A DNA stretch of 64,000 bases from Bacteroidales bacterium (GTDB taxonomy: Bacteria; Bacteroidota; Bacteroidia; Bacteroidales; Marinilabiliaceae): the NCBI GenBank assembly GCA_015061285.1, contig SUWW01000006.1, forward strand, positions 1-64,000, given 5' to 3'. A model generated the notes under the pieces. The model searched no databases and was not told where the DNA came from. It saw only the letters and a list, made by a program, of their open reading frames with translations. How positions within the stretch are numbered: position 1 is the stretch's first letter; each line of letters begins with the position of its first letter. Both the position numbers and the translations under genes were made by a program. Below are positions 14,845 to 56,547 of the stretch, piece by piece.

Positions 14845-14858
14845 AGTTTGTACCTTTT

Positions 14859-24210: not shown

Positions 24211-27200
24211 ATGAGAAACGTGTACCGAATTAGTGCAGAGCCATTGGCTCTCGCGAATGTTTCGCTGTTATCATTACGCAGATTATCAAAATTGCACACA
24301 AGGCTGTATAGACTATGTGCTGTTGCAATGTGTTTCCTTTTGACTTTAGGGTTTAGTGCTGAGACATGGGCGCAAACGCGAACCTATGGTGGCATTACAT
24401 TCAATGAGTCGACGGATGCGCCTCTTAAGAATGCCGCGGGCTATTATCAGATTACTAATATCAGGCAGTTGGCGTTTGTTGCTTATCGTGTAAACAACAA
24501 CGCTACGTGGGCAGGAAATGATTACATTTTGACTGCCGACCTTGATATTACGGGCTATGAGTGGGTGCCTATTGGTAATAAATACTACACAGCAGGCAAT
24601 GCCAATACAAAGCACGGTTCATTTGGAACAGCAATAAACTTAGGTGCTGGCGTGTTCTCTGGTACCTTCGATGGCAATGGGCATACCATTACAGGTTTGA
24701 CTCAAACTATGGGTTATACTACTTCGGGCCTTTTCGGTACGGCTCGTGGTACAATCAAAGATTTGACATTAGCTAATGTAAACGTGACTGGCGGTAATAT
24801 GTCGGGCGCGTTGCTTGGCTATTCTGCATATTCGGCAAGTTGGACGGGAGGTACAACCGTTACAAATTGTCATGTGCTGAGTGGTACGGTAAGTGGTAAG
24901 AATGAAGTTGGTGGTTTGATTGGTTGGAGCCATGGTGCAGTGGACGAATGTTCCAATGCAGCCTCGGTTACAGCTTCTGCAGAGAGCGTAGGTGGTGTTG
25001 TAGGTGGTCAGGATAGCAACAACATGACATATTGTACAAACTATGGTTCTGTGGTTAGTACCAATACAGGATATTCGTTGGCTGGTGGTATTGCGGGTAA
25101 CTTGCTTGGCTATAATACACCAGAGCTATTAGCTTGTGTCAACTATGGTTCGGTGACTGCTGCAGGTATGAACACTGGTGGTATAGTAGGTGAGCCTAAC
25201 GGACAAGTGCTCATAAATAGCTGTATGAACTATGGCGATGTCAGTGGTGCTACATACGTAGGTGGTATTGCTGGTACGGCGCGTAACTCGCGTGCTGCTG
25301 CTGGCTCGAACTCTACCGTTTCTGTATGTATAAACTATGGTAACGTTTCGGGTACAAACTACGTGAGCGGTATAGCCAACTCTAAAGGCGATGGTGGTGG
25401 ATACGAGGGTATTGTTACTATGAATATCAACGTAGGTAAGGTTACAGGTACGAGCAATGTAGGACAAATATCAAGCACGGGACTTTCGTTGGCAGGCAGT
25501 GTAGATAACTTCTACGACTACCAGAAGACCTACGATTGCAAAGGTATTAGCCTTACTGCCGACCTTACGGGTAAAGCTGAGGCTAAGAGCACGGCAGATA
25601 CATATAAATGTCAGAATACTCATGCCAATTCAGATGCATCGAAGAGGCTATGGCGCACGCTCAATGGCGTAGCATATCCAATACCTGCAATGCTCTACGA
25701 TGGAGGCGATGCATGTGCGATGTTGCAGATGGTGGCTGGCGTGTGTCTATATACAGGAAGCAACTACAGCACAGAAGGTGACTATGATCTTCAAATAGAT
25801 AGCGAATTCCGCTTGCCTAAAAAACTTTCCAACGACATAGCAAATATCACATGGGAGGCATCGCCTGCAGGAATAGTAACAGCTACCGAAGGCACAAACG
25901 ATTGGGTATTTACGCCTTCTGGTACTTTGGGTGGCGAGGTTACACTCACTCCATCTATAAATGGTACGCCTTGTACTGATGCGGCTGTTACGCTTACCAT
26001 TGGTGATATAACAAATAGTAGATTGGTCTACAGTCCTACGCCAGTGCCCGACTATGTGTGGACTGGCAATGCAATAGAACCTTCGGTAGTGGCACAAATC
26101 TACTTTGGCTATTTGTCAAGTAAAGCTTCAAACAAGGCTGGTTCGTTGCTCGATGCAAGCCAATATTTGGAGATAACCTACGAAGACAATGTTGATCCTG
26201 GAGTTGGTACTATAATAATAAAAGGTGTAAATGGCTATTGTGGCGAGCAGAAGCTCAATTTCAACATTGTGCCAATACATCAAATAACAGCAGTAAGCTA
26301 TGCTAATGCGCAAGAGTCTTGGACAGGTTCGGCTATCGAAGCTGACTACGATGCTCTTACGGTTACTTATGACGAATGCGTCACGAATGACGATGGCTCG
26401 TATAAGACAACGAACACCGGAAAAACAGTAACAGGTGATGCCTTGCGTGCTCTTGTGGAGTCGGGGCAGATAATACTTACGTATGAGAATAATGTAGACA
26501 GAGGAACGGCTACCGTTACCGTTTCGGGCGATGGTACGAACTTCGCTTGCAAGAACGATGCTTGCAAGAACTTCACCTTCAAGATTAGAATGCCACTCCG
26601 CGAGATGGTGCTTTCGGAGGGCTATTCGGCAGGCAATTCCGTTACGCGTGACCATTTGGCAGAAATAGTGAGCGTATACGATTTTGCTGGCTATGGCGTT
26701 AATTCTACATACTATGATCTTACTTATTACGATAAAAATGGGGCTCTAATACCTACAGGTTCTGGCTCTATAAACCAAACATATAGCCCAATAACGATAC
26801 GCGCTACGGTGAATACGCGAGGCGTTAATAATCAGTATGTAGAGGGCTCGTACGTAGAGGCTAAATATCTTATAGGTGTGCAGCCATATTTGTTTATTAC
26901 TCAGGGTAGTACGCATGCGCGTTTTGTTGCTATGTCACCTGCAGAGAGAAATAATTATGTAGCTGGTACTGTATATCAAGGCGAGACTGTTAATGCTACA
27001 TATTCACTTACTGATATATTCTCAAATACAGGGACTCACACATACCAAAGCAAATTGTGGGAAGATTGGTATGGCGCAGCTAATCCAATGCCAGCGACCA
27101 TAACCGACGTATATTTCGAAGAGAGTTTCAAAGATTTGGCTTGGCCTTCGGGTGCATATATGTTCCAAGGAATGACAGCACTCAAACATTTGCACGGAGT

Positions 27201-30200
27201 GGCGAACTTCAATACTTCGGCAATGATCTCTATGCGATATATGTTCGATGGCTGTACGGCACTCGAAGATGCCGACAACGACTTTGCTTCGTTTACAGCT
27301 CCCGAAGTGGAGGATATGGAGGCAATGTTCAAGAATTGTGAGAAGTTGACTAAGGTCGACTTTAGCAAGATGGGTGGTACGCCAAATTTGACATATTGGT
27401 TGAACGACATGTTCTATCAATGTTTTGCTCTTGAAGAGGTTGACTTGAGTGGTATGACCACTAATAAGGTTCTGGAAATGAAGTCTGTGTTCCAATGCCC
27501 TGATCCTACAAAATCGGGTGATACCTATAGTGGCAAGAGTAATTTGAAAAAAGCCAATTTGAGCAGTTGGACATTCAATGCATGTACCTCAATGCAAGAT
27601 ATGTTCCGTGGCTGTTGGCAGATGGAAGAGGTAGATTTGAGTAGTGCAGCGGCAGCTCCTAATCTTACATCTTTGTTGCGTATATTCTACTATTGTACGA
27701 AACTCAAGAGTGTAGATTTGAACAATTTCGAAACCAGCAATAAATTGAACAACGTAGCTCGTATGTTCAGTAATTGTGAAGCCATTACGTCAATCAAGAT
27801 GGATAAACTGAATACCGAAGGCGTAACTGGCACTGGCGGATTTAACACATACGATGATGGTATGGCAGAAATGTTCAATAACTGTCGTTCGTTGACGTCG
27901 TTGGATTTCTTGCAGCATATATCTACAAAGAATTGTACGAAGTTCAATCGTATGTTCCGTAGCTGTATGTCGTTGGAAGAGGCCGACCTACATAAGTTTG
28001 AAACAAGTAAGGTTAAGTATATTAACGCTATGTTCGAAAGTTGCCGTTCGTTGAAGAAGGTTTCGTTCCTACAATGCGATTTGAGTAAAGTCGAGATTGC
28101 GCAATATATGTTCAACGACTGTAGCCAATTGGAAGTAGTAGACTTCTCGGGTGTTCGCAGGATGCCGAATTTGAGCAATGTAAAAGTTATGTTCAATGGT
28201 TGTACATCGTTGAAGACAATCTATTGCCGCGACTACGATACCGATTGGACAACAGGCGGTAAGATTACCACCGGAAATGGTGATGGCTCTACAAACGATG
28301 CTAATAATTCGTCGGATGAAACTGCTGTATTTGGCAAAGGTTGGTACGACTATAGTGTTGATGGTGGTTCTGGTGGTACATGGAGACCAAGCACTGCACC
28401 TTCGGGACTTGTTGGTACTCCTACTCCAAAACTCTCTATCCCTAAGTTGGATGGCGAGAGTACTTCTGACTATGAGGCACGAGTAAATTTATTGTGGTTC
28501 AACGATGTTACTTGGGCAAAGGCAAAGGCTGGCGACTACGATGGACAACTTGGCGTTGGCGACGGACACTACAAGAGCTATCGCGGTTTGAAGAGTGCCA
28601 ACTTAGGTGGTTACTTCACTGCAGCTACGCTCGATGCCGAGATAAAATATGATCGTTGCGTGGCTAACGATACCATTGATGCTATATATGCGGGTCCTGA
28701 TGGTTACGGTCTTAAGATAGTTAAGGTGATATTCGACGGTCAGGATGTAACCACAATGACCGACTACGATGGCGAACTCTACTACGAGGTTATAGTTACG
28801 CGAGGCGGCAAGACCACAAAGCGTGACGTTCATGGCGTATGGAGTGCAGTTACTTCAGAGCCAGCCGATACCATCAATGCAGGTTGCGACGATATAACCG
28901 TAACCATATCTACAGCCGAGACTGGTATTGTGCGTAGCCAGACATTCTACATTCGCCCTGTTTCGTTGCAATACGACGAGGCAATTGATTGGAATGGCGT
29001 TGTAGATGGTCAAGTATGGACGGGTGAGCAACTCAAGCCCGATCTTACTGGCAAAATACATTATAAATATACACGCCGCAATGGCGAAGAGGTAGACTAT
29101 GTTCTTACTGTAGCCGAGAAGGGTAGTGCAGAAGCAGCTACTGCCGATGTGGTGTGTGAATATGGCGAGAACATAGAGGGTGAGGGAACTATAACCCTTA
29201 CTGGTAGTGCTACGTCAGATTGCGCTGATGGCTACAAGACTGGCGGTAACTTCTATGGCACTAAGGTGTTGCGATTCCCAATAGTGAAAGTAACGCTCGA
29301 CTATCCAGAGCCTACTTACATAGGCAAAGAGATAACTAAAGATGTGCTTGGCGTGAAGATTAACAATAGCGCTGCACGCAACACGATGTCGATGCTTGTG
29401 AATGGTAGCTATGAAGATGTGAGTGTGGACTATAGCTACGACAACAACATTTGTGTAAGCCGCGATGCCAATGGCGAAGTGATAGAGAATGCTGCGATAG
29501 TGATGACATTCAGCAGTTCGGCAGCATCGCTCAACTTCACCGTAACGAAGTTCTTCAAGATTATGCCAGCACCACTCACTGTGCGCCCGAAGGCTGCTAC
29601 GGTGGTATATGGTAGTAACTTGACCGACTTGGACTACGACCAGTTTGAGTTTGAGTGCGAAGGCCTTGTGAATGGCGAGACTATAGATGGCACCGACGGT
29701 TGTGGCAACCCAGTATTCAAGACTATGCCTAAGCCTAATTCCGATTATTCGGTATCCGAAGGCAATCCATCGACATATAAAGCTGCAGGAACTTTACATA
29801 ATATAAACTTCTACGGCGGCTCAGCGCCTAACTATGAAATCACATACGAGACGGAGCAACTTCTCGAAGTGGTTAAGCGCCGACTCTTTGTAGAGGCCGA
29901 CACCAAAGAGGTTTCCTTTGGCGATGCTGCGCCTACCTATACATATAGTTATAGAGGTTTTGCGAGTGGCGAGACTGCGAGCGTACTTACTGGCACGCCA
30001 ACATTGTCGTGCGACTATGTGCCGTACGCACGCGACATGAAGTTCGATATAAAGGTAGACGTGGAAGGTATGTCTGCCGCCAACTATACAATTGAGGGTG
30101 TAGATGCTGTTTTGACGGTTAATCCTGTGGAATTGAGTAAGATAACCAACTTGCAATACACTACCACAGAATTCGATAACTCTATTAAGCGCCCGACATT

Positions 30201-48200: not shown

Positions 48201-51200
48201 AATGCCTGCCGGAGATGCTACATACGAAGCTGTTTGGACGCCAAATACATATAAGGTTGCGTTCCATAACAACACTGGTAGTGGCAGTATGACTCCTCAA
48301 GAGTTTAACTACGATGAGGAGAAAGCACTCACAGCAAACACCTTTACCAAGACGGGTTACACCTTCGCTGGCTGGGTAGATGCAAATGATGCAACTAAGA
48401 CCTATACCGATGGCCAGAAAGTGAAGAACCTCACATCTGCTTTGGGAGCAACGATAGACCTCAATGCTCAGTGGGATGCTAATAAGTACACTGTAGTATA
48501 CTATGGCAACCATGCGAACGTGACTGGTTCTATGACTTCTACAGCTGCTGAATACGATGTAGATGTAACCATCGCTAACAACGGATTCAACTTGAAGGGA
48601 CACAGTTTCCTCAACTGGAATACTAATGCTGATGGTACGGGCAAGACCTTCGAGGCTGGTGATGTAGATAAGAACCTTACGGCAGAGCCTAATGGCAAGT
48701 TCAACCTCTACGCTCAGTGGAAGGCTAATAAGTACAAAGCAACGTGGATGATGAACAATGGAACTGCCGACAAGTTCACCGAAACGGAAGTTGAGTACGA
48801 TACCAATATTACCGCACCTATACCAGAACCTTCGCGTGAGGGCTACACCTTCGCAGGTTGGAGCACGTCAGCGTCGGCTTTGACTCCTGATAGCGACCTT
48901 GGTACTATGGACGACGATGGCGAAACGTTCTACGCCGTTTGGACTACGAACAAATATCTGTTGGCTTGGAATGTTAATGCTGGCGACGATGCTACGGCTA
49001 AGCTTGAAGGTACATATACACCTAATGGCATGACCGTCTTCGGTACCAACTTGGTTGCACCTTCGGCAACACGCCACGGATACACCTTCAAGGGCTGGTC
49101 TGAGACGCAGAATGGTAGCACCATCGAGCCAATCTTAGACAAGATGCCTGCTCGCGCTCTCAGCTACTACGCTAAATGGGATGTTAATAAGCATACTTTG
49201 ACTTGGAATATTAACTCTCCATCTAACTCGGCTGCAGCATTCGAGAGCGACGACTATACGAAGGGTTCTACGGACTTTGACACTACTATAAATGCACCTT
49301 CTGTAAGTTGTGTAGGCTACGTATTCAAAGGTTGGACGACATCACTTGATGGCGATGTTGTAGAACCTCAGACTACAATGCCAGACGAAGATTTGACCTA
49401 CTATGCTAAGTGGGAAGAGGCAGAAGGTATCAAGTATATCGTACGTCACTATATGCAGAACGTCGATGACGATAACTATACATATACTGACGAAGAGAAG
49501 ACCGGTACCACCAATGCTACGACAGCCGCTGTGGCTAAGACCGTTGCAGGCTTCGCTTCTCAAAACTTTACACAAGGTACAATTGCTCCTAACGGCAGCA
49601 CGATTGTAGAGATTTACTACAACCGCAACAACTACACATTGACATGGGAAGTTGCTGGTGGTACTATTGGCAGCGCTCCATACACCGCAGCTGGTTCTGT
49701 ACGCTACGGTAAGGCGCTTACCGCTCCTTCGCTCACGCGCACTGGCTACGATGTATATGTATGGTCGCCTGAAGTTCCAGCTACTATGCCTGCTGGCGAT
49801 AAGACCTATACCGCTGTTTGGACTGCTAATACGTACGAGGTAGTATTCAATGCAAACACAGGTAAGAACACCATGCCTAATCAGACATTCACTGTTGATG
49901 TGCCTCAAGATCTCAACGAGAATACCTTCGAGAAAGAGGGTTACACATTCACCAAGTGGAATACTCAGGCCGATGGCAATGGTACTTCATACAACGATAA
50001 GCAGCGTATTGATGTGAACCTCACTACTACGAATAATGCTGCAATCAACTTGTATGCTCAGTGGGCGCCTAATACGTATACTATCAAGTATATAGGTAAT
50101 AAGGTGAACGTCACAGGTGCTACGGAGCCGCAGGTTGTAACCTACGACCAAAATGTAACCATAGCTACAAATGGCTTCAATTTGGTTGGCTACACCTTCC
50201 GCAACTGGAATACACAACCTGACGGTGGCGGTGTTACCTACAACGAAGGTGACGAGAAGAAGAATCTCAACGCTGAGCCGAACGGAGAGTTCAAACTCTA
50301 TGCTCAGTGGCGTATCAATAAATACGACGCTGTTTGGATGATGAACGATGGTACCAATGATACCTACGCTACGACACGCTTCGATTTCGATGCTCAGATT
50401 ACTGCGCCTGACGGCGAGCCAACACGCGAAGGTCACACCTTCCAGGGCTGGAGCAAGAACCAAACCGCAACGGCTGCTGATAGCGAACTCGGTACGATGG
50501 ACGATGGCGGCGAGACGTTCTACGCCGTTTGGACAACGAACCAATACGAAATTGTTTGGGATAAGAATGCTACAGATGCTGTGTTGAGTGGCGACTACTC
50601 AAGTGGTTCTATCTACTTCGGTACTAATATCCGAGCTCCTAAGGCAGAACGCACGGGCTACACGCTCCGCGGTTGGTCTGAGACACAAGCTGGTGGTACT
50701 ATAGAACCTATAGAAACCACTATGCCAGCGCGCAATTTGCACTACTACGCTCAGTGGAATGTTAATACGCATGTTCTTACATGGGATCCTAACTCACCTG
50801 CTAACTCTACAGCTACGCTCAGTGGCGACTACACCAAGGGTAACGTGGCATTTGGAACGCCGATAGATGCTCCTACGGCTGAGTGCGTTGGCTACAAATT
50901 CATGGGCTGGGCTACTTCTAAGGATAGCGAGGTTGCTCCTATCGCGGAAATGATGCCTGATAAGGATGTTACCTACTACGCTATCTGGGAAGCTCGCGAC
51001 GACATACAATATATTGTACGTCACTATAAACAGAATGTCGATGACGATTTGTATACCGAGGTTGAGGCAGATCGCGAAACCAAGACTGGAACTACAAACG
51101 GTTTAACCTCGGCTGCGGCTAAGTCATACAGCGGCTTCACAGCGCAAGACTTTGCACAAGCAGAAATCGCTCCTAACGGTAGCACCGTTGTAGATATTTA

Positions 51201-54200
51201 CTACGATAGAAATAGCTACACGTTGACTTGGAACTATGCAGGTGGTGAAGAGGGTAGTGCAACGTTCACTCCAGCTGGTGAAACACGCTTCGGTAAGACT
51301 CTTACAGCTCCGAAACTCACTCGTGAAGGATACGATAAGTATGTATGGAATCCTTCAGTTCCTGCTACTATGCCTGCTGCTCATTCTACCTACACTGCCG
51401 TTTGGACGCCAAATACCTACAAAGTGGCATTCAACAACAATGGCGGTAGTGGCACTATGACGTCGCAAGCCTTTACATACGATGAAGCTCAAGATCTCAA
51501 GGTTAACACCTTCACTCGTGAAGGTTACACCTTCGCTGGTTGGGCTGAAACAAACAACGATGTAGTTAAGTATGCTGATGCTCAGAATGTGAAGAATCTC
51601 ACGAGCATCAACGATGCTACAGTAACACTCTACGCCGTTTGGTCTGCTATCGACTACACTGTAACCGTGAACTATGGTACGTCTAATAAGACTACAGCAA
51701 ACATTGGCGAGACGATTAGCTTGACTCCTAATACTGTGACAGGTTGCACGTTCAACAGTTGGAATGTTGTTACCGAGGCTGGTAATGCTGTAACTATGAG
51801 TGGTAACAGTTTCGTGATGCCTGCTGCCAATGTAATAGCAACAGCTTCTTACGATACCATATACTACAAAGTGACAGTGAGCGATGGAGCTAAGACCGAT
51901 GTCGCTACTGCTAAGTATCAACAAGTAGTAACTCTCGACCACGATGCTAAGCCTGGCTTCAACTTCACAGGTTGGACAGTTACCGATGCAAATAGCAACG
52001 AGATTATTGTTAATGGCGGTAAGTTCACTATGCCAGCTTCCGATGTTACCGTGAAAGCTAACTACGTAGCTATACAATACATAATTACCGTTGACAATGG
52101 TACGGCAGATAAGAATGAAGCTCCAATGGGCGAGGCGGTAACAATCACCGCTAATGCTCCTGCCGATGGCTACGAGTTCGACTATTGGGAAATTACCAAC
52201 GGTGAAGGTGCCTCTATGAACAATGCAAATGCAAGTAGCACTATTCTCCGTGTAGGTACAAGCAATGTGAACGTCCGTGCTAACTATCGACTTGTCGACT
52301 ATACGATTACCGTAAATAATGGTACAGCCAACAAGACTACGGCTAACATGAACGAGCTTGTAACTATTACAGCAAACAATCCTGCTATTGGCTACGAGTT
52401 CACGGGTTGGACGCTCGTAAGTGGCACTGGCGCACAAATAACCAGTGTGACAAGCAACGAGACAACCATAACTGTAGGTACGGGTAATGTTGAAGTGACG
52501 GCCAACTATCAACTTGTTGAGTATACCATCACTGTTCACGGCGGTACTGCTAATTATACCACGGCAACATACGAAACCACCGTTTCTCTTACTGCCGACG
52601 ATAAACTTGGTTATACGTTCGACGATTGGGTTACCGAGCCTAATGTTAACGTAACGTTTACTAACACATTCGTGATGCCAGCAAGTGACATTGACGTTAC
52701 AGCTAAGTTCATACCTAATGAATACACTATTGAGTATGTTAACAATGGCGGTGTAGGTACAACAGTAGATCAAGATGCTACCTACGATCAAGATGTGACT
52801 ATCCTCAGCAACACTGGCTTCACTAAGGCTGGTTATGAGTTCATTAGTTGGAATACCCAACCTGATGGTTCTGGCGCTACTTACTATCCTGGCTCAACGC
52901 AGAAGAACCTTGCTACCGAAGGCACTATTACTCTCTATGCACAATGGGAGATAGCAGGCTTCATAATAACCTTCAACAATAATGGAGGCAAAGGCTCAAT
53001 GGCAACTCAGCAGATTAACTACGATGTGTGGGATTATCTGTCGAAGTGCACATTCACCAAGACAGGTTACAAGTTCGCTGGTTGGAACCTCAAGGCCGAT
53101 GGTACTGCATACCGTCACGATGGTAAGGGTATCAACTATGAAGATGAAGAGTATGTGTCGAACATCACTGCTGGCGAGGCTGTAACGCTCTACGCTCAGT
53201 GGAAACCTGTTGACTACTATGTGGCATTTGATGGCAATGCTGACGATGTTACAGGATCAATGGATAATCAGCTCTTCCGTTTCGACGATGCTGAGCCTCT
53301 CAACACTAACAACTACACGCGTACAGGCTACACCTTCACAGGTTGGAATCGCAATTCGGAAGGCACGTCAGTTGCTATGGCCGATGGCGAAAAAGTTGTA
53401 AATCTCTCTTCTACCGAAAATGATGTGGTTCGCCTCTACGCTCAGTGGACTGCTAATACATATACCATCACATTCAAGAAAAACGATGGTACCGGTCAGA
53501 TGGACGATATGACTATGACCTATGGTGTTGAGGCTTCGTTGACACCTAACGCATTCACTCGTGAAGGTTATGTATTCTCTGGTTGGGCTACTTCGGCAGA
53601 TGGTAAGGGTACTCGCTTCGAGAATAAGCAAACCGTCAAGAACCTTGTCGGTGACAAGGGTGGTGTAATTAATCTCTACGCTCAGTGGTCTCCAATTACA
53701 TACACCATTGTATATAACGCTAATAATTCTCAAGCTGTTGGTTCTACTGAAACTCAAACGTTTACCTATGATGTAGCTCAGACGCTTAATGCTAATGGCT
53801 ATACTGTTGATGGCTACTCATTCAAAGGTTGGGCTACAACGATAAACGGCGAAGTGGTATACCTTGATAAACAAAATGTTTACAATATCACCACTACACC
53901 TGACGCTATCATCAACCTTTACGCTGTATGGACGGCTAATATGTATTACGTCGTATTCGATGGTAATGGTAGCACAAGCGGCTCAATGTCTAAGCAAACA
54001 CTCGTATTCGACGAAGCTAAGATTCTTAATGCTAATGCTTACGTACGTAGTGGATACAACTTCAATGGTTGGAATACAGCTGCCGATGGTAGTGGTACTG
54101 CATACATAGACAAAGCTGTGGTATACAATCTTACTAACGAGGCTAATGTCGATGTAACATTGTATGCTCAATGGAAGCCAGGTGTATACACTATCACCAC

Positions 54201-55428
54201 CGACGACTACTCTACTTCTGATGTTGCTTCGGCTACGATGGGTACGAAAGTTACTGTTACACCGCTCTATCGCGAAGGCTACAATTTCGTTGGTTGGTCT
54301 ACTAAACCTACTAACTTAGTTATCAACGATGATAATACGTTCGAAATGCCAGCGAGTGATGTAGTGATAAATACAATCTTCAATACGATTACCTACACCA
54401 TTACCTATAACATACCTGATGGCGTAGAGAATAGCAACCGTACGCTCTACACGATTGTAGATGATGATATAAAGCTTGAAGATGTTTATCGCTCTGGATA
54501 CATATTCCAAGGCTGGTTCAACGAAATTGGCGATCAGGTAACTGTTATACCTTCTGGTTCTACAGGCAACATCACCTTGACTGCTAAGTGGAAAGCCGAC
54601 ATCGAAATTGAATGTATTGATTCTAAACCATTCATTACATGGAACAGTAGCGACTATACACAATTCGTAACTTGTGAAAACGAGGAGTCGATTGTGGTAG
54701 ATATTCCTACACCGCAAGGAACGTTCATCAATTGCAATGGTAAAGTCTTTACTGGCGAGCAGATTATGCGATATGTCAACTACACATTCTTCGTGAACGG
54801 CGTGAAGATGCAGTCTGATACTATCAACACCTTCACTCTGCCTGACGAAGGCATACCAAGCAAGGGTATTGTTGATGTTGCAGTATCGTTGCTCGAGGAT
54901 ACGGCTACGTGTCATATCAGCTACGAGATTCGCCGTCGCTTCATCACCATCATGTGGAACGATGTAATATCAGTAATTAATACTGGTGAATACACCGAAG
55001 ATGGTAAGTTGTTCGCTGCTGGTAAATATGAATGGTATCATCAGAAACTTGGAGAAACAGAGTTCAAGCAAATCGACGGTGTAATAGCTCCATACTATTG
55101 TGAAGATGGTGGCTTGACAGGTACTTACTACTTGATTGCTTATACTGAAGATGGCACCAAGTACAGATCGTGCGACAAGGTAATAGGTAATCAGTTGGTG
55201 GCTCAGTCGCTCGTGGCATATCCTAATCCATCGGCAGGCATAGTCAATGTCAAAGGTGGAACATGGGATGTCGGTGATGCGATAACCGTCGTCAACGAAA
55301 GTGGTCAGACAGTGATAACACGAACTGCCGAAAGCGCAACAAAAGACAAAGTCGATTTGTCGGGATTGCCGCAAGGAACCTACGTAATCAGAATTGGAAA
55401 CGATGTGGTTAGCGTAATAAAACGATAA
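24211..55428 (+). CDS. Giant 10,405-residue T9SS-type repeat surface protein
   Basis: One open frame of 31,218 bases, roughly 1.1 MDa. A long basic n-region leads to a signal peptide ending TWA|Q (residue 54). Then come a GLUG-type beta-helix (about 60-430), Ig-like YTG modules, BspA-type leucine-rich blocks at about 964-1347, 2869-3037 and 3266-3440, MBG-like tandem repeats (4455-4909), and two InlB-repeat arrays (about 4107-4454 and 5314-10130), totalling some 65 units by my count of GYxFxGW-like cores. Residues 10330-10405 are a type IX secretion sorting tail: AYPNPSAG at the front and VDLSGLPQGTYVIRIG near the end. The likely fate is export across the outer membrane and attachment as a long surface fibre. 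Adhesion is inferred from the repeat families; no enzyme domain was recognised. No stop or frameshift is seen. Confidence 0.93.
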   Translation: MRNVYRISAEPLALANVSLLSLRRLSKLHTRLYRLCAVAMCFLLTLGFSAETWAQTRTYGGITFNESTDAPLKNAAGYYQITNIRQLAFVAYRVNNNATWAGNDYILTADLDITGYEWVPIGNKYYTAGNANTKHGSFGTAINLGAGVFSGTFDGNGHTITGLTQTMGYTTSGLFGTARGTIKDLTLANVNVTGGNMSGALLGYSAYSASWTGGTTVTNCHVLSGTVSGKNEVGGLIGWSHGAVDECSNAASVTASAESVGGVVGGQDSNNMTYCTNYGSVVSTNTGYSLAGGIAGNLLGYNTPELLACVNYGSVTAAGMNTGGIVGEPNGQVLINSCMNYGDVSGATYVGGIAGTARNSRAAAGSNSTVSVCINYGNVSGTNYVSGIANSKGDGGGYEGIVTMNINVGKVTGTSNVGQISSTGLSLAGSVDNFYDYQKTYDCKGISLTADLTGKAEAKSTADTYKCQNTHANSDASKRLWRTLNGVAYPIPAMLYDGGDACAMLQMVAGVCLYTGSNYSTEGDYDLQIDSEFRLPKKLSNDIANITWEASPAGIVTATEGTNDWVFTPSGTLGGEVTLTPSINGTPCTDAAVTLTIGDITNSRLVYSPTPVPDYVWTGNAIEPSVVAQIYFGYLSSKASNKAGSLLDASQYLEITYEDNVDPGVGTIIIKGVNGYCGEQKLNFNIVPIHQITAVSYANAQESWTGSAIEADYDALTVTYDECVTNDDGSYKTTNTGKTVTGDALRALVESGQIILTYENNVDRGTATVTVSGDGTNFACKNDACKNFTFKIRMPLREMVLSEGYSAGNSVTRDHLAEIVSVYDFAGYGVNSTYYDLTYYDKNGALIPTGSGSINQTYSPITIRATVNTRGVNNQYVEGSYVEAKYLIGVQPYLFITQGSTHARFVAMSPAERNNYVAGTVYQGETVNATYSLTDIFSNTGTHTYQSKLWEDWYGAANPMPATITDVYFEESFKDLAWPSGAYMFQGMTALKHLHGVANFNTSAMISMRYMFDGCTALEDADNDFASFTAPEVEDMEAMFKNCEKLTKVDFSKMGGTPNLTYWLNDMFYQCFALEEVDLSGMTTNKVLEMKSVFQCPDPTKSGDTYSGKSNLKKANLSSWTFNACTSMQDMFRGCWQMEEVDLSSAAAAPNLTSLLRIFYYCTKLKSVDLNNFETSNKLNNVARMFSNCEAITSIKMDKLNTEGVTGTGGFNTYDDGMAEMFNNCRSLTSLDFLQHISTKNCTKFNRMFRSCMSLEEADLHKFETSKVKYINAMFESCRSLKKVSFLQCDLSKVEIAQYMFNDCSQLEVVDFSGVRRMPNLSNVKVMFNGCTSLKTIYCRDYDTDWTTGGKITTGNGDGSTNDANNSSDETAVFGKGWYDYSVDGGSGGTWRPSTAPSGLVGTPTPKLSIPKLDGESTSDYEARVNLLWFNDVTWAKAKAGDYDGQLGVGDGHYKSYRGLKSANLGGYFTAATLDAEIKYDRCVANDTIDAIYAGPDGYGLKIVKVIFDGQDVTTMTDYDGELYYEVIVTRGGKTTKRDVHGVWSAVTSEPADTINAGCDDITVTISTAETGIVRSQTFYIRPVSLQYDEAIDWNGVVDGQVWTGEQLKPDLTGKIHYKYTRRNGEEVDYVLTVAEKGSAEAATADVVCEYGENIEGEGTITLTGSATSDCADGYKTGGNFYGTKVLRFPIVKVTLDYPEPTYIGKEITKDVLGVKINNSAARNTMSMLVNGSYEDVSVDYSYDNNICVSRDANGEVIENAAIVMTFSSSAASLNFTVTKFFKIMPAPLTVRPKAATVVYGSNLTDLDYDQFEFECEGLVNGETIDGTDGCGNPVFKTMPKPNSDYSVSEGNPSTYKAAGTLHNINFYGGSAPNYEITYETEQLLEVVKRRLFVEADTKEVSFGDAAPTYTYSYRGFASGETASVLTGTPTLSCDYVPYARDMKFDIKVDVEGMSAANYTIEGVDAVLTVNPVELSKITNLQYTTTEFDNSIKRPTFNITTKPSDAVLSDAVVKIANDSSYIYTVYENNYYVGTATVSVDGDGTHYIGSLSKTFEITGECGLVVSKITEDDPVYTGEEIKFGVDVLSAKYLKVTKKYWLNNNQSVQVTVTSPTTLDDGVDVPQGKILTIVDLSGYSNADLEYAEEDYINAGSKNLSFNEDVAPFEENVSYTNYVKAYKGERSWWFGWNYGEGEPYGVNEQISNYGQVDRIYYEYDGNTGSGIFSPTYRWRYGNGNGQYESIFSTGGTEIQTAVLHGCGFTYTILPKDIDTTNVEGAGAVSIDMPYEHTAYTGSALEPEPIVKYNGMTLVKGTDYTLEYENNTAVGTATVTIKGIRETTPNYGNYKGEVTRTFEITKAPLTVRATVDKSSITYGDACPTIGYEIDASQLVGDVALHYADPDRYNMTEAEVLAEIFTTVPDPAVSTNYNVENALRRGVGTYNVTLGAFASNNYELTLENTTFDVTKKELTVKANHDDIQVSFGQSTKVEGGVEYNLKNQYYAAVITGFVYGETIADLDCRSNLRLLTEYIPYPETGHQQAGETARVYITGATGGTCPDDEDTNYTFKYYKADGTEVTNADDFATIYIKGSLLTITPTTGYNQIYYAGSLDEINASWTAKDEWNNTLVASDFDLEPVELTSTYGTNGHKYVGETFRITVAKGHKTNYTTRNFLPDVDIYKEVEIICRDLTPLDPATSANDDRLKIEGLNADNRIEVAYKNGAAVTKAEVLNAFTIQLKNGMNNDEWENLVEGTDYTLELMTTSGIGFSGDWTKAGLHRVKISALADNKYCGNFTVDVDILIVPAVVLTADGKATFGCFTPSQITVGGTFNGSEIEKIAKLPTGVLQDESGNLLSSSWVGYSDVYSTDLFNTYTEVVFDESFKKVYPTSTSGWFSGATGLTTITGINENLNTERVTNMSDMFYQCNALTSLDISDWNVSAVTTFYRMFEQCQSLKSLDLSSWNTANVTDMRGTFSHCDALEKLNIVGWNTANVTTANWMFANCKKLASIDLSTFDLGKCTDVANMFNGCTSLARIYCASSSTNFSGIKTRGDVFKNCNKCLLKGVDGTTVVIYDGSASGDYFKSASLGGYLSPKVGTLTPRVGELTATLDNDTTIFGSAVSLVPDLNVYFDGESDALTPDVDYIVTYYNETTKETLCEVTKPGRYTITIAGIGAYAGNVAETVDYYVVQPSVIVYNSSKNADFVLTTEAYTGKSLTYKDKSIERVYAISGLKLAEKPTVTIGDFNTSTYKSGTNNNGYWKSSSPDATILGIETITFDESFEKVRPTTMQSWFGRTGRDKKSDMALKTLVNPEYIHTELVTNMKYVFNACGALKTVDVSSWVTDKVTTLEGMFTCCAELTSVDVSNWNTENVTTFKDLFMWCYKLQAPDLSGWKTSKVTDMSAMFGKTYAMTHIDVSTFDVSKVTNFNYMFEACSTLERIYCESTTTNWASGAGQSSSNSNSSNTFDVNLPLLIGVASNGNQVLYSTVKSKSQAYAKAADLGGYFTPVVVTFDVADVVYTGNKVEPIVSNVWYTYTELEPYQEGTEDTHLKYVVEVIDPAIDVTDDAEVKVSRADFSEKNTTKTFKIMPKSIAEDDEELGTSPVLAGTIADKLYTGSAIELTSEELASLLTYNGVALVEGTDFEVMSYEDNINISTSTTKAKVTLTGKGNYKGTRVVEFNITKACLKTLETAGKVTVDDIAAQIFTHAAITPSVVVKREGTALAATTDYTVTYTNNTCVGSSTVTIKGANNYDDSDECALTTTFAIEPAALTLKANNVAVTYGHDFSEAATQGYTSTGFIAPDDAATLIEDVTYASEDYTNTKSVGEYKNQIDVVTPKDNADCALSLDNYTVTKADGKLTVNKANLATEDAAGQIAIPEIDDQTYTGSAIEPEITVTYSRNGVALVKGTDYKVTYTDNVNVGTATITIEGLASSTNWWNGNAITRTFNIVQAELSADIDESSFVYNGEAQKPTVTVTFGTTELAQSAANYSLTWSNASSTDVDSYTVTVTPGTNFSKVNGETTVTFTYTITKAERPAPTVTAVDETVCNKNDGKITGVTNEMEWSSDNITYTAATGNLENLSDGTYYVRYKESANYKQSAETTVTIDEGGKLTVTFDVDGGSTVEAKEVCYGETITAPSTTKDCYTFGGWYADATFSTSFDFTAGITDNTTIYAKFTQDRFTITWKNDNGAVLETDENVACGSTPNYDSATPTKTANAQYTYTFDKWSPAVATVSGDATYTATYKSDVNEYSITWVDGDDIILLEEVLAYGETPVYDGAITPTKTATAQYTYTFNGGWKPNVVSVVSPATYEAQFDSTVNKYTVTFVDYDDSAISSKDYDYGTAAADIAKPTDPTRTGYTFTGWTPTVAEVTANATYKATYSLDSYTITYNLDGGTVANANPTTYTVNSADITLNNPTRDGYTFKGWSGTDLTGDENQTVTIASGSTGNRTYTANWLRDVTVTFTAQTVNRTYKGTAWADETVYTYASNVDAYTVSAANITYNGADWDDSYIKTSRTDVGTSTVSLDQSKFENKNAAYNVTFVVNGEGELTIEPKAVTVTVKGNNDTKTYTGSEQSVSGYTFEDEFDGFVASKVNYTGDEHSTAKGTDVGTYNMTMTSADFSYNDANYDVTFTVENGALTITKQAVTITVTGNNATETFDGTAKSVIGYTATADFAEFDAAKVVYNGGTHNTATGTNVGYYEMAMVAGDFSYDDANFTVTFSIAQGKLTIEKKAVEILVAGETATKTYNREEQSVVDYALTGFGTGYDASKVTYSGTDDQKTAKGTNVGEYNMDLKVSDFAYSDNNYDVTFTVTNGKLTITQKEVTITVAGKKETKTYNGAEQSVVGYDLTGFGTGYDATKVSYSGGDVKQTAKGMNVGSYDMTMAATDFSYSDANYKVTFAVTNGKLTIESKAVTVTAQSFSINYGETPDYAAHIDYATLADGQTSADLATAAAATSDYGTAGNLCAGSYPITFTTEAADGNYTFTHTTGTLTVNAIAISAANVALEYASHAYTGSALEPSVTVTVDGKTLTEGTDYTVAYANNTEPGEAKVTVTGKCGYTGSPMVNFTIGKGCIVASEVTKLEDTYTYTGSPVVALSDIEVKYNGETLTEGPNGYSISFNSGADVTNVTGNPVTVTVKGTGNYGCEVAQTFTIAPATLTATATPLSFDYTGDIQKPTVIVKFGDTELAVSAENYTLSWNDESSTNAGDYTVTVMPGTNFSKVNGDDAYTFDYTINKVAYPAPTGLVAEAETVCDKNDGKITGVTSAMEYSTDGATYTAAVGDLTGLSDGTYYVRAAADANHLASERVELVVAAGGKLTVTFETNGGSAVEAKEVCYGATIAEPTTSKGDCYTFEGWYKEASFDNEFDFSSPITETTIIYAKFTIKTYTITWKNEDGTVLETDENVACGSTPNYDSTTPTKAATAQYTYTFDKWSPAVETVSQNATYTATYTSTVNKYTALAISNEVNGISVATVTPTGVKYDYGTEVTFSTTITDNCYEFVAWTRDAAGTDVASKNAEFTTTIKGDSTFYANFRIKTYKLNLTSGANGKITNQNASEDVVTGTPKEYTYDCGTTVTIEAVPTSGYKFVKWSDDVTDAVRTITMDAAKELSATFSAETYIVTLDGDGATTAGTALVEATYATALPAIETLPIRTGYTFAGFYTGQDGAGIQYYDNTGAGLKNWDIASNTTLYAKWNINQYTITFNTDGGTTIAPITQDYGTAVTAPANPTKTGYTFAGWDKTIPGTMPAENVTITAQWQINQYTITFNTDGGTTINPITADYGAAVTAPADPTKTGYTFNGWDKTIPTTMPAENQTITAKWSINEYTITFNTDGGTAIAPITQDYGTAVTAPANPTKTGYTFAGWDKTIPGTMPAENVTITAQWQINQYTITFNTDGGTTINPITADYGAAVTAPADPTKTGYTFNGWDKTIPTTMPAENQTITAKWSINEYTITFNTDGGTAIAPITQDYGTAVTAPANPTKTGYTFAGWDKTIPGTMPAENITITAQWTINQYTITFDTDGGNTIEPITQDYGTDVAAPENPTKTGYRFVGWDKDIPATMPAADMTIKAKWSINQYILTINRNDNTYGTVSGAGGYDYNTAAAINATANYGYKFVEWRNANGQISTTASTTVTVKSDTTITAIFEPVNFLVTANSDAQGTAAGSGNYTYKTSATVVATPSYGYKFKNWTNEADEVVSSEAEFEFTVVGDTTLTAHYDPITYTVTVNNTTGGSATGAGDYDYNEPAILVATPATGYHFMKWTSLDKDNNAVQLGTNATLNFTVTRDTTITANYEINSYTVTATSNGNGTTSGSATYTYGQTATLTATPNACYRFVNWTTGAGDVYSNAASIDINVTDNVTLYANFEKIAYELILAAGANGKVTNITAANEELTASTSKTYDYECGDEIQIKAEPNYGYKFVEWQNADGSRYSTDATTTVTMSANTKLTATFTELDYTVTANSDAQGSATGSGSYKYLSNATVVAAPIYGYQFKNWTNDNGDEVSTSASYTFTVTSDITLTAHYDAKTYTVTTNKTTGGETVTGGGSYVYNTEADLAATAMTGYHFVNWTSLDKDNNAVQLGTETSLNFTVTRDTTITANFEPNTYTVTFNVNGGAGETMAAQAFTYNVAQNLSANTYTREGYTFDGWALAADDAVAHTDQKSVINLTAENNGTVELFAHWKPINYTVTVNGGTADKTTANIGDEITLTFAGKTGYNPKDWTTTPALSVENNKFTMPAANVVVTANYTPKTYTVTLNNQGATTSGSTTIEATYDAALQDISVPTKAGYTFEGYYSAENGAGNKYYNGTGNGVRTWDIDDASATLYANWNINKYTITYMVDGVQDGDVEEYDFNALVTMRTEPTKVGYTFSHWSETITNMPAENKVITGTFSVNQYNATWMMNDGTTNTYTAQPTKFDYGTAITAPEGKPTRTGYEFKGWSRTSNASAPDESLGTMSENGETFYAVWAINTYLLTWNINTTDATATFGTTSYTVGNVTFNDPIVKPAPTRTGWSFKYWMETEAGSEANVPATMPAKPLTYYAYWEINKHNLTWHENSPAGSTAIFSGDYTQGNEVAYGTEIVVPTANCTGYTLVGWATSANGEVVDIDTRMPDADVTYYAIWAEASGIPYTVRHMQQNVDKTAYVEESTETKYGTTNGVTEAIAKTFDGFTALAITQGTIAADGSTVVEVKYDRKDFKLTWDFGNGTTTQTAGTDYTDAGSVTFGAALTAPTLTRTGYKNPTWSPEVPATMPAADATYTTVWTPNKYHVAFDNNGGVGEMGNQEFTFDVAQNLTANAFTKTGYHFTEWKDADDASKTYTDNQEVKNLTTVDGATITLKAQWKANNYTIVYNGNGATSGSIVNQLATYDQDVDIADNANATDYKRTGYTFNNWNTKANGTGTTYSATQSPKPQNLTSQNDGEVTLYAQWTVNTYTATWMMNDGSGETFTTSTFEYGAPITAPTTNPSRTGYTFLGWHTEYDATAKLDDLGTMPVDGITFYAVWTEADGIQYIVRHMWQNVDDDDYAVHETETKSGTTNAQTVAAAKEYDGFTVQTFAQKQIAADGSTVVDIYYNRNNYNLAWTLNGGTATNTYTAAGSVRFGKALTKPELEREGYDVYVWQPEVPATMPAGDATYEAVWTPNTYYVVFNSNSGTGAIERQTFTFDVSQKLAKNDNLITKEGYTFTGWNTAADGNGNPYADEQEVENLTSVKGATITLYAQWKANKYTIVYNGNHTGVTGNTQSTDAEYDQTVTIAANGFNVVGYTFNNWNTKAEGDGTSYAAGATPKNLTNEPNGIFNLYAQWTVNQYTVTWMMNDGTDDVYTTEPTTFNYGATITAPDGKPSRTGYDFVGWSKNRLATAKDESLGVMSENGETFYAVWTEADGVKYIVRHMQQNVDDDNYTEFETDEKHGKTNAQTAASANTYVGFTAQPFNQTSIAADGSTVVEINYNRNNYTLAWTLNGGTATNTYTAAGSVRYGKALTKPELEREGYDVYSWQPDVPATMPAGDATYEAVWTPNTYKVAFHNNTGSGSMTPQEFNYDEEKALTANTFTKTGYTFAGWVDANDATKTYTDGQKVKNLTSALGATIDLNAQWDANKYTVVYYGNHANVTGSMTSTAAEYDVDVTIANNGFNLKGHSFLNWNTNADGTGKTFEAGDVDKNLTAEPNGKFNLYAQWKANKYKATWMMNNGTADKFTETEVEYDTNITAPIPEPSREGYTFAGWSTSASALTPDSDLGTMDDDGETFYAVWTTNKYLLAWNVNAGDDATAKLEGTYTPNGMTVFGTNLVAPSATRHGYTFKGWSETQNGSTIEPILDKMPARALSYYAKWDVNKHTLTWNINSPSNSAAAFESDDYTKGSTDFDTTINAPSVSCVGYVFKGWTTSLDGDVVEPQTTMPDEDLTYYAKWEEAEGIKYIVRHYMQNVDDDNYTYTDEEKTGTTNATTAAVAKTVAGFASQNFTQGTIAPNGSTIVEIYYNRNNYTLTWEVAGGTIGSAPYTAAGSVRYGKALTAPSLTRTGYDVYVWSPEVPATMPAGDKTYTAVWTANTYEVVFNANTGKNTMPNQTFTVDVPQDLNENTFEKEGYTFTKWNTQADGNGTSYNDKQRIDVNLTTTNNAAINLYAQWAPNTYTIKYIGNKVNVTGATEPQVVTYDQNVTIATNGFNLVGYTFRNWNTQPDGGGVTYNEGDEKKNLNAEPNGEFKLYAQWRINKYDAVWMMNDGTNDTYATTRFDFDAQITAPDGEPTREGHTFQGWSKNQTATAADSELGTMDDGGETFYAVWTTNQYEIVWDKNATDAVLSGDYSSGSIYFGTNIRAPKAERTGYTLRGWSETQAGGTIEPIETTMPARNLHYYAQWNVNTHVLTWDPNSPANSTATLSGDYTKGNVAFGTPIDAPTAECVGYKFMGWATSKDSEVAPIAEMMPDKDVTYYAIWEARDDIQYIVRHYKQNVDDDLYTEVEADRETKTGTTNGLTSAAAKSYSGFTAQDFAQAEIAPNGSTVVDIYYDRNSYTLTWNYAGGEEGSATFTPAGETRFGKTLTAPKLTREGYDKYVWNPSVPATMPAAHSTYTAVWTPNTYKVAFNNNGGSGTMTSQAFTYDEAQDLKVNTFTREGYTFAGWAETNNDVVKYADAQNVKNLTSINDATVTLYAVWSAIDYTVTVNYGTSNKTTANIGETISLTPNTVTGCTFNSWNVVTEAGNAVTMSGNSFVMPAANVIATASYDTIYYKVTVSDGAKTDVATAKYQQVVTLDHDAKPGFNFTGWTVTDANSNEIIVNGGKFTMPASDVTVKANYVAIQYIITVDNGTADKNEAPMGEAVTITANAPADGYEFDYWEITNGEGASMNNANASSTILRVGTSNVNVRANYRLVDYTITVNNGTANKTTANMNELVTITANNPAIGYEFTGWTLVSGTGAQITSVTSNETTITVGTGNVEVTANYQLVEYTITVHGGTANYTTATYETTVSLTADDKLGYTFDDWVTEPNVNVTFTNTFVMPASDIDVTAKFIPNEYTIEYVNNGGVGTTVDQDATYDQDVTILSNTGFTKAGYEFISWNTQPDGSGATYYPGSTQKNLATEGTITLYAQWEIAGFIITFNNNGGKGSMATQQINYDVWDYLSKCTFTKTGYKFAGWNLKADGTAYRHDGKGINYEDEEYVSNITAGEAVTLYAQWKPVDYYVAFDGNADDVTGSMDNQLFRFDDAEPLNTNNYTRTGYTFTGWNRNSEGTSVAMADGEKVVNLSSTENDVVRLYAQWTANTYTITFKKNDGTGQMDDMTMTYGVEASLTPNAFTREGYVFSGWATSADGKGTRFENKQTVKNLVGDKGGVINLYAQWSPITYTIVYNANNSQAVGSTETQTFTYDVAQTLNANGYTVDGYSFKGWATTINGEVVYLDKQNVYNITTTPDAIINLYAVWTANMYYVVFDGNGSTSGSMSKQTLVFDEAKILNANAYVRSGYNFNGWNTAADGSGTAYIDKAVVYNLTNEANVDVTLYAQWKPGVYTITTDDYSTSDVASATMGTKVTVTPLYREGYNFVGWSTKPTNLVINDDNTFEMPASDVVINTIFNTITYTITYNIPDGVENSNRTLYTIVDDDIKLEDVYRSGYIFQGWFNEIGDQVTVIPSGSTGNITLTAKWKADIEIECIDSKPFITWNSSDYTQFVTCENEESIVVDIPTPQGTFINCNGKVFTGEQIMRYVNYTFFVNGVKMQSDTINTFTLPDEGIPSKGIVDVAVSLLEDTATCHISYEIRRRFITIMWNDVISVINTGEYTEDGKLFAAGKYEWYHQKLGETEFKQIDGVIAPYYCEDGGLTGTYYLIAYTEDGTKYRSCDKVIGNQLVAQSLVAYPNPSAGIVNVKGGTWDVGDAITVVNESGQTVITRTAESATKDKVDLSGLPQGTYVIRIGNDVVSVIKR
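24385..25500 (+). repeat. GLUG-type beta-helix region of the giant protein
   Basis: Repeated units such as VGGLIGWSHGAVDECSNAA, VGGVVGGQ, AGGIAGNLLG and TGGIVGEPNGQ, each about 20-30 residues and followed by NYGxV. This is the pattern of GLUG motifs found in secreted adhesins and IgA-peptidase-like proteins. It forms the mature N terminus. Confidence 0.8.
27100..28250 (+). repeat. BspA-type leucine-rich block 1 (13 units)
   Basis: About 13 units with the core MFxxCxxLxxxD, for example MFDGCTALEDAD, MFKNCEKLTKVD, MFRSCMSLEEAD and MFNGCTSLKTIY. This is the DUF285/BspA leucine-rich repeat associated with binding to fibronectin or to other bacteria in oral Bacteroidales. Each unit carries one Cys at the same place, forming a ladder. 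Confidence 0.85.
32815..33320 (+). repeat. BspA-type leucine-rich block 2 (6 units)
   Basis: Six units including MFYQCNALTSLD, MFEQCQSLKSLD and MFANCKKLASID, closing with MFNGCTSLARIYC. Preceded by EVVFDESFKKV, the same entry sequence used by blocks 1 and 3. Confidence 0.85.
34005..34530 (+). repeat. BspA-type leucine-rich block 3 (6 units)
   Basis: Six units including VFNACGALKTVD, MFTCCAELTSVD and LFMWCYKLQAPD, closing with MFEACSTLERIYC. Entry sequence ETITFDESFEKVRPT. The three blocks share start and end caps, so they probably arose by duplication inside the gene. Confidence 0.85.
36529..37572 (+). repeat. InlB-type repeat array 1
   Basis: Five Listeria-Bacteroides (Flg_new/InlB B) repeats, with cores CYTFGGW, YTYTFDKW, YTYTFNGGW, GYTFTGW and GYTFKGW. 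Each unit is about 65-75 residues. Confidence 0.85.
37573..38937 (+). repeat. Five tandem 89-97-residue MBG-like repeats
   Basis: Units start at 37573, 37864, 38131, 38398 and 38668. The core is VTVTVKG, then TKTYxGxEQSVxGY, a KGTxVGxYxM stretch and YDVTFTVxNGKLTI. The last two units are the most alike. The family resembles MBG domains; no function is assigned. Confidence 0.8.
41290..42423 (+). repeat. Six 189-bp tandem repeats, partly exact
   Basis: Copies start at 41290, 41479, 41668, 41857, 42046 and 42235, each 63 codons. The first five alternate between two types. Bases 41371-41726 are identical to 41749-42104, an exact 356-bp direct repeat with a 378-bp period. Any gain or loss of a copy keeps the frame. 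Confidence 0.95.
45577..52730 (+). repeat. Higher-order super-repeats with VRHMQQNVDDD modules
   Basis: MucBP-like modules begin at 45577, 46717, 47845, 49429 and 51004 (VRHMQQNVD, VRHMWQNVD, VRHMQQNVD, VRHYMQNVD, VRHYKQNVD). Each is followed by InlB-type units in the same order of subtypes. Spacings are 1140, 1128, 1584 and 1575 bases. The longer periods contain two additional InlB units of about 75 residues. Confidence 0.85.
55198..55425 (+). other. T9SS type A sorting domain of the giant protein
   Basis: The last 76 residues (10330-10405) match the Por secretion-system C-terminal tail. AYPNPSAGIVNV holds the PNP box, ITVVNESGQTV is the middle strand and VDLSGLPQGTYVIRIG is the closing box, ending in basic VIKR. 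In Porphyromonas and Flavobacterium such tails route proteins through T9SS and are then removed. Confidence 0.88.
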
Positions 55429-55439
55429 AAACAAATAGA

Positions 55440-55515: not shown

Positions 55516-56547
55516 ATGAATACTACATATATAAAATATAACGCTATGAGCTGGTTGAAATGCATCGCATTACTATTGATATTGGCTATCGTTGCTCCGA
55601 TTGACCTTGATGCTGCGCCCAAACGTAAAACGAAGAAAAAGAAGTTTACTACTCAAGAGCTTGAGAATATGTTCCTCACGTTCGATTGGGGTGGTGGTTT
55701 GTATACTTATACCTACGACGTCAAGGGTGATGGGGCTAAGAGTATGAAGCCTGGTGGTACCTTCAATGTTTGCTTTCAGCAGTTCTTCTATAGTGGTATG
55801 GGTTATGGCCTTGGTTTAGGTGCTTCGTATTATGGCGCTGCTACAACTTTTTCTGCTCTTGAAGAGGTGACCGTCACCGATGAATGGGCCCACAGCTACG
55901 ATCCTGAGTTTACTGAATATTATGGCAAACCAGAGAGTTATACCTATCGTACATATTTCAATTCTGTAGCCGAACGTCAGCACCTTGTTCAACTTGAAGT
56001 TCCTATTATGGCTATGTATAAATTGAAGAACATGACCGAAATGTGGGACTTGACTGTAGGTCTGGGTGTGCGAATTGGTGTGCCATTGATGAAGAAGTAT
56101 AAACTCACCGATGGATTATACGAAACTCGTGGCTACTATGAATCAACAGGAGTCGAGTATTCCGGGCTCTCGCAGCATGGCTTCAGAGCCGTATCCGATG
56201 CAAAAACAGGCAAGAGTAATTTGAATCCTGTTACTGCAAGTCTTTGCCTCGATGCTGGTTGTAACTACCATTGGACGCGTAACAAGACGATATATTTCGG
56301 CCTCTACTTTAGCTATTGTGTGACGAATGTTGCTAAATCTACTAGCTCAGGTATTGTTAGCGTTGATGACCAGAGTTACAATGGTGTGCTTGGTTCGCAA
56401 CTTGTAGACAAAGCTCACTTGATGGGTGCTGGTGCCAAGGTTCAGCTCTGTCTCGATTTTGTGCGCGTGCAGTCGCTCTTCAAGGGTCGTGGAAGCTCTC
56501 GTAAGATTAATGCACGTAGTAAACGAAGCGTTCGTTCAATGTTCTAA
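55516..56547 (+). CDS. Outer-membrane beta-barrel protein
   Basis: A 343-residue protein with an N-terminal signal (hydrophobic core LKCIALLLILAIVAPIDL, cleavage after LDAA) followed by a Lys-rich segment (PKRKTKKKKF). The rest alternates hydrophobic and polar residues with aromatic girdles, for example FFYSGMGYGLGLGASYYG and TIYFGLYFSYCVTNVA, as in outer-membrane beta barrels. It starts 87 bases after the giant gene. In Flavobacterium the giant adhesin SprB needs the neighbouring barrel SprF for export, so a partner role is plausible by analogy; sequence similarity to SprF/PorP was not established. The next in-frame ATG at 55546 is an alternative start. Confidence 0.75.
   Translation: MNTTYIKYNAMSWLKCIALLLILAIVAPIDLDAAPKRKTKKKKFTTQELENMFLTFDWGGGLYTYTYDVKGDGAKSMKPGGTFNVCFQQFFYSGMGYGLGLGASYYGAATTFSALEEVTVTDEWAHSYDPEFTEYYGKPESYTYRTYFNSVAERQHLVQLEVPIMAMYKLKNMTEMWDLTVGLGVRIGVPLMKKYKLTDGLYETRGYYESTGVEYSGLSQHGFRAVSDAKTGKSNLNPVTASLCLDAGCNYHWTRNKTIYFGLYFSYCVTNVAKSTSSGIVSVDDQSYNGVLGSQLVDKAHLMGAGAKVQLCLDFVRVQSLFKGRGSSRKINARSKRSVRSMF

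Follow-up and report, generated by a model that had tools for sequence, protein, structure and literature searches.

A giant type-A T9SS adhesin gene and the barrel gene behind it: a proposed two-gene surface module in a Bacteroidales bacterium

In published models, type-A cargo of the type IX secretion system (T9SS) is taken from the translocon by PorV and ends up either free or attached to LPS, whereas every type-B cargo stays with a carrier of its own, which anchors it (PMC12635249, PMC12618676, PMC9143113). PorV and the PorP-like proteins are 14-stranded barrels of the FadL family (PMC9143113). In Flavobacterium johnsoniae the very large, repetitive T9SS adhesin SprB has the gene for its own outer-membrane barrel, SprF, next to it, and it is this arrangement that the locus described here resembles.

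The window, i.e. the whole stretch of 64,000 nucleotides analysed (C24:1-64000), comes from the genome of a gut/rumen Bacteroidales bacterium (3.55 Mb, 25 contigs, 99% complete). It contains a giant adhesin gene and, starting 87 bp 3' of it, a gene for an outer-membrane beta-barrel (Table 1). The paired barrel lies just outside the coordinates treated in an earlier, sequence-only reading of the adhesin, which missed it, and is the most informative feature of the locus. We favour, with a probability of about 0.6, the interpretation that the two genes form a surface module in which a type-A T9SS adhesin is held by its own cognate barrel.

Table 1. Features of the adhesin-barrel locus, in window coordinates.
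Feature	Position	Strand	Evidence
Promoter-like -7 box TAAATTTG = TAnnTTTG	24074..24081	+	pattern match only
Giant adhesin gene	24211..55428	+	ORF; ortholog fragments under purifying selection
Leader / probable signal peptide, unusually long n-region (aa 1-55)	24211..24375	+	hydrophobic core aa 35-48
Glycine-rich repeats, GLUG-like by eye only (aa ~150-430)	24658..25500	+	no Pfam match at E<0.01
DUF285/PARCEL + LRR_5 leucine-rich block 1 (aa ~950-1345)	27058..28245	+	HMM
MBG/Ig-like modules (aa ~1590-2465)	28978..31605	+	HMM; MBG_2 above cut-off in gene
DUF285/PARCEL block 2 (aa ~2850-3035), largely missing from G002 ortholog	32758..33315	+	HMM, ortholog alignment
DUF285/PARCEL block 3 (aa ~3250-3440)	33958..34530	+	HMM
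MBG/Ig-like modules (aa 3596-4027)	34996..36291	+	HMM including local HMMs
InlB-type repeats, first cluster (aa 4107-4451)	36529..37563	+	Pfam + iterated local HMM
Five ~92-aa MBG-like repeats in array (aa 4456-4913)	37576..38949	+	local HMM
InlB-type repeats, main stalk (aa 5314-10127)	40150..54591	+	Pfam + iterated local HMM
378-bp near-identical tandem units, copy number uncertain	41274..42433	+	exact 356-bp repeat
Span with five 'YIVRH..QN' modules (aa 7121-7188, 7501-7568, 7877-7944, 8405-8471, 8930-8999)	45571..51207	+	local HMM
Pre-tail Ig-like domain, co-occurring with barrel	54934..55212	+	A1 profile; Ig-type PDB matches
T9SS type-A sorting domain	55216..55404	+	TIGR04183 match; PDB chain 8glk_D
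Intergenic hairpin between adhesin and barrel	55439-55470		sequence; kept in G002 C33
Outer-membrane beta-barrel, 343 aa (OMP_b-brl_2), proposed dedicated partner	55516..56547	+	HMM, pairing, structure model

The giant frame and its domains

The adhesin gene, its domains and tail, and the T9SS genes of the source genome can all be read from the sequence itself. The gene is a single open reading frame with an ATG start, zero internal stops and zero N, its predicted product having a mass of 1,128.7 kDa and a pI of 4.4. A stop-free run of 10,405 codons is far above chance expectation, and the sequence-only reading, which had described one uninterrupted frame of 10,405 residues, was exact in its coordinates. 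Since an in-frame stop lies two codons 5' of the ATG and the next methionine is M40, within the hydrophobic core of the leader, translation probably begins at the first ATG. The promoter-like box upstream conforms to TAnnTTTG, which we take to be a Bacteroidota-type -7 consensus.

Elsewhere in the window, the contig starts with 14 exact copies of GAAAATT (1-98), and a glycogen/alpha-glucan cluster (DUF3417 phosphorylase, GH57 and GDE_N/GDE_C debranching enzyme) occupies 9513-16781 on the minus strand. After the barrel gene comes a Rid-family protein (56705-57820), for which the FkbO/Hyg5 chorismatase-type match is weak (49 bits, cut-off 325), and then RseP.

The sequence-only reading had proposed an HMM search of the translation, which was here scanned in 1000-aa pieces against Pfam and NCBIfam HMMs: DUF285, MBG_2, Flg_new/Flg_new_2 and TIGR04183 matched, and PF07581 did not. 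Three BspA leucine-rich blocks had been claimed; DUF285/PARCEL indeed lies far above cut-off in all three, but the BspA-type LRR_5 model exceeds its cut-off in the first only. The Ig/MBG-like modules stand, MBG_2 being above cut-off. The label of GLUG beta-helix finds no HMM support, PF07581 (Glug) having no match in the giant even at E<10 and Peptidase_M26_N reaching just E 0.14. Assignment to the InlB B-repeat family follows from PF09479 / TIGR02543 above cut-off (e.g. 4.5e-87 and 2.3e-51 per 1000 aa), and an HMM iterated on the giant protein itself counted 64 such repeats, 62 of them full-length, very close to the 'about 65' reported before. The protein is not itself an internalin: its scores fall far under the internalin whole-protein cut-offs, and only the repeats are shared.

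Direct block alignment resolves five super-repeats (aa 6891-9148) within the main stalk, mutually 52-67% identical and each marked by a 'YIVRH..QN' module, the one such module tested giving no Pfam match. It is reasonable to regard the repeat region as a long stalk; general knowledge of domain sizes suggests that some hundred domains would perhaps make an extended fibre of several hundred nanometres.

The earlier claim that the protein is exceptional is not supported. The same genome encodes a longer adhesin of 12,543 aa in frame (C4:106427-144055), relatives have frames of the same build of 3,600-5,800 aa, and in Omnitrophota a published bacterial frame reaches 39,678 aa (PMC10066038). Giant adhesins of such domain content are an already known kind.

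Comparison with relatives, likewise proposed earlier, bears on whether the frame is real. Bacteroidales bacterium RGIG6965 (G002), a sheep-rumen MAG of the same genus as the source genome, has on contig C92 a 4,552-aa open frame corresponding to the first 4,700 aa of the giant. Over 4,378 aligned residues the two are 87% identical, all indels being of whole codons (dN 0.087, dS 0.385, dN/dS ~0.23), and the C92 frame reaches the contig end inside the repeats. This ortholog lacks some 300 aa in the region of the second DUF285 block, indicating that modules come and go. Two further contigs, C33 and C36, bear C-termini 74% and 59% identical, respectively, to the last 278 aa of the giant; the C-terminal 1,159 aa on C33 show 79% identity (dN 0.146, dS 0.904 over 1,148 codons, dN/dS ~0.16). 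The two ratios indicate purifying selection at both ends of the giant frame. This independent assembly support covers those two ends, the middle (aa ~4,700-9,250) lying outside it. The longest exact repeat in the gene is of 356 bp, at 41371 and 41749 with a period of 378 bp, and the count of 126-aa units may therefore be wrong if the assembly was made from short reads.

That exact repeat, together with the break of the G002 assembly inside the repeats and its two C-terminal copies, is what might be expected were the 31-kb frame an assembly artefact or a chimera of several genes or paralogs. Against this stand the absence of stops, the unbroken G002 frame of 4,552 aa from the N-terminal part, which is under selection and whose indels keep the frame, and the similar constraint on the C-terminal repeats and tail, so that we consider an artefact very improbable, even though the number of repeat units may yet prove wrong.

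The G002 genome has at least two giant-adhesin C-termini (C33 and C36), one adjoining a DUF4290-like gene and a homolog of the 2,001-aa adhesin described below, and its giant N-terminus on C92 adjoins a phosphoglycerate-mutase-like gene. These copies lie outside the fabF-rnc context of the window, which points to giant-adhesin genes having been moved or duplicated.

Sorting tail, pre-tail domain and barrel

The type IX sorting tail noted in the sequence-only reading is confirmed by scores of 41.7 bits against TIGR04183 (cut-off 23) and 42.6 against PF18962, Por_Secre_tail (cut-off 27), and it matches PDB chain 8glk_D (E 8e-5). A type-B tail was rejected, there being no TIGR04131 match in the translation. 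The source genome contains the translocon SprA (2541 bits) and the carrier PorV (408 bits), which, with the tail above cut-off, supports the earlier description of a megadalton, T9SS-routed, multi-domain surface protein. Beside PorV lies a PorU-like type-A protein of 1,129 aa, which leaves room for LPS attachment of the giant.

A positive control for the typing of tails and barrels is available in the same genome. The 12,543-aa giant has SprB repeats, PKD domains and a CHU_C tail which, at 35.7 bits for TIGR04131 (cut-off 35), is of type B, and 9 bp after it lies a PorP/SprF gene (C4:144068-145153; TIGR03519 195.8 bits, cut-off 90.55): the two make a textbook SprB/SprF pair. TIGR03519, which detects this control, is silent on the window barrel and on those of its siblings tested, so that PorP/SprF identity was rejected; PorV identity was rejected too, the window barrel being absent from the NF033709 matches in the source genome. 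PDB sequences searched with the barrel profile yielded no match. The structure model of the barrel is of modest quality (mean pLDDT 64, from 5 sequences); its best structural matches include 8-stranded barrels of the OmpA/Ail/NspA type, those of the FadL type being weak. The window barrel is thus probably OmpA-like and 8-stranded, the model being too weak to settle strand number. Fusion of such a barrel to an OmpA-type peptidoglycan-binding domain is seen in a sibling from the same genome (C20, by HMM) and, by reading, in G011, G030 and G085.

The pre-tail domain comprises ~80 aa directly before the sorting tail, with the pattern W..V..N...YQWY..G..I.GA...Y...GG..G.Y (alignment A1). Its matches in the PDB are Ig-like domains, and the model of the giant's C-terminus (pLDDT 82) has structural matches of Ig type, although such matches could reflect a widespread Ig module and not a dedicated docking domain. 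The hairpin between the two genes has a perfect, G+C-rich stem of 11 pairs, without a T-run on the plus strand, and is absent from G002 C36; as a speculation, it might set how much adhesin is made relative to barrel.

Pairing across genomes

Separate searches of 61 genomes with the last 278 aa of the giant and with the barrel gave matches lying side by side. At the loci read, T9SS-type frames as long as 5,800 aa, some of them truncated where the contig stops, each had such a barrel behind them. Profiles for the pre-tail (A1) and the barrel (A2) were then used in independent searches of the same 61 genomes. At E<1e-9, A2 recovered 54 barrels; 31 are on the same strand as an A1 match and within 2 kb 3' of it (11 of these 31 come from outside the training loci), and a further 10, most of them belonging to a second subfamily, were found by reading to come immediately after T9SS-type tails. 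Pairing thus holds at 41 of 43 resolved loci, the window locus included, the other 11 of the 54 barrels having been left out as being at contig ends or not inspected. The two barrels without a preceding substrate are G032 C109 and G012 C84. The window pair itself matches the profiles at 54934-55212 (A1) and 55561-56469 (A2). Across 198 genomes sampled phylum-wide, the barrels outside the source genome number three, each lying directly behind a pre-tail match, and SprA is present in each of the 10 paired genomes tested. The conserved pairing and the OmpA fusions are, like the gene itself, sequence-level observations.

Within the source genome, all three barrels follow type-A substrates, namely the giant and proteins of 2,001 and 1,898 aa. 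The second pair (C24:75609-82589) consists of an InlB-type T9SS adhesin (C24:75609-81611) and its own diverged barrel; the pre-tail of this 2,001-aa protein, 'WYKVV.E.D', is not recognised by the A1 profile and defines the second subfamily, found in G001, G002, G004, G005 and G009. The third (C20:220288-227639) is the 1,898-aa adhesin with a barrel that bears an alanine/lysine-rich linker and the OmpA peptidoglycan-binding domain. For a dozen other T9SS-tail proteins in the genome, the pre-tail score was no better than E 0.08 and no A2 barrel lies behind. Four of the five pair tails tested pass TIGR04183 (the giant, the 2,001-aa protein, C20 and G013); the fifth, from G008, scores 17.6 bits, under the cut-off, and has as its best match the type-C model, likewise under cut-off.

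Pre-tail domains without a barrel occur at G012:C22:11425-12999 and G006:C79:11502-12728; these orphans could share the barrel of another pair. Both genes have type-A-like tails and adjoin thiamine-type genes. Distances among substrate C-termini and among barrels are correlated (Mantel r 0.97, 0/5000 permutations), a value that shared descent alone would raise.

These figures weigh against the textbook route (PMC9143113), by which the giant would be an ordinary type-A substrate, shuttled by PorV, cleaved by PorU and linked to LPS, with the barrel unrelated and co-transcribed by chance. The TIGR04183 score and the presence of PorV with an adjacent PorU-like type-A protein are as this would have it. 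However, chance accords poorly with a barrel family found behind T9SS substrates at 41 of 43 resolved loci and at three of three further ones, and the unpaired T9SS proteins of the source genome lack the pre-tail domain. We regard this explanation as improbable, and as the less likely of the two rivals that accept the frame.

The other, and our main rival, is improbable too, if slightly less so. It takes the barrel as a dedicated shuttle, like SprF for SprB, that removes the adhesin from SprA in place of PorV, anchoring being secondary or absent. One barrel directly 3' of each substrate is the SprB/SprF layout, shared by the type-B giant of this very genome, and the secretion of type-B cargo needs SprF-like proteins (PMC12618676). 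The tail, however, is of type A, which published work assigns to PorV (PMC12635249, PMC12618676); the barrel matches neither TIGR03519 nor PorV, and its model appears nearer to small OmpA-like barrels than to FadL-type 14-stranded ones. The OmpA fusions, moreover, suggest anchoring.

According to the two-gene module that we favour, the adhesin would be exported by Sec and then, via its type-A tail, by the T9SS. Its N-terminal DUF285-type (and GLUG-like) domains would serve as the outer binding part, with the MBG and InlB-type repeats as the long stalk. After export, the Ig-like pre-tail would dock on the barrel and the barrel would retain the fibre at the outer membrane, where, in the sibling pairs, the fused OmpA domain would fix it to peptidoglycan. 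If PorU cuts off the tail, the pre-tail would stay on the mature chain. Because the substrate segment that accompanies the barrel is the pre-tail, which would survive PorU cleavage, general type-A export followed by pre-tail docking is proposed. Docking and anchoring, like export, adhesion and fibre length, are here inferred, and gene neighbours need not bind one another.

Relation to known systems

With Listeria internalins and BspA/PARCEL proteins the giant shares InlB B-repeats and DUF285/BspA-type leucine-rich repeats, but envelope, export and anchoring differ. It resembles the GhpA 'grappling hook' of Aureispira, also of the Bacteroidota, in being a very long surface chain, and solved GhpA fragments are among the structural matches of its C-terminus; the resemblance, however, is of the general Ig fold only, with low TM-scores.

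Compared with SprB/SprF, the tail differs in being of type A (TIGR04183) rather than type B, and the domains are InlB, MBG and DUF285 instead of SprB repeats. The barrel, unlike SprF, has no TIGR03519 match and is modelled as a small OmpA-like barrel. The PorE-PorP-PG1035 system of Porphyromonas gingivalis provides a precedent for a surface protein held by a barrel with a peptidoglycan tie through an OmpA-type domain (PMC9143113), an arrangement proposed here. There, PorP and PorE are separate and the cargo is of type B, whereas here the OmpA domain lies within the sibling barrels and the cargo tested is mostly of type A. A cognate non-PorP barrel for a type-A substrate was not found in the open-access literature searched.

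We suggest, tentatively and at somewhat less than even odds, that these pairs represent a third branch of T9SS attachment across the class Bacteroidia, comprising type-A adhesins that are exported by the general tail and whose Ig-like pre-tail docks on an OmpA-type barrel of its own, which may or may not bear a peptidoglycan-binding domain. Were this so, the branch would be an added attachment route, explaining how megadalton fibres bear load, and could be tested in culturable relatives. The combination of pre-tail and barrel offers, in addition, a sequence signature by which such adhesins may be found in uncultured gut and rumen Bacteroidales.

The giant agrees with type-A substrates such as gingipains and RemA in its tail and in having PorV along with a PorU-like protein encoded in its genome, but those substrates use PorV only (PMC12635249). 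If the module proposed here is correct, type A would not always mean linked to LPS or released. Relative to published models, in which dedicated barrels serve type-B cargo only, what is new here is that a type-A tail is combined with a barrel that is dedicated to its substrate and comes from a different family.
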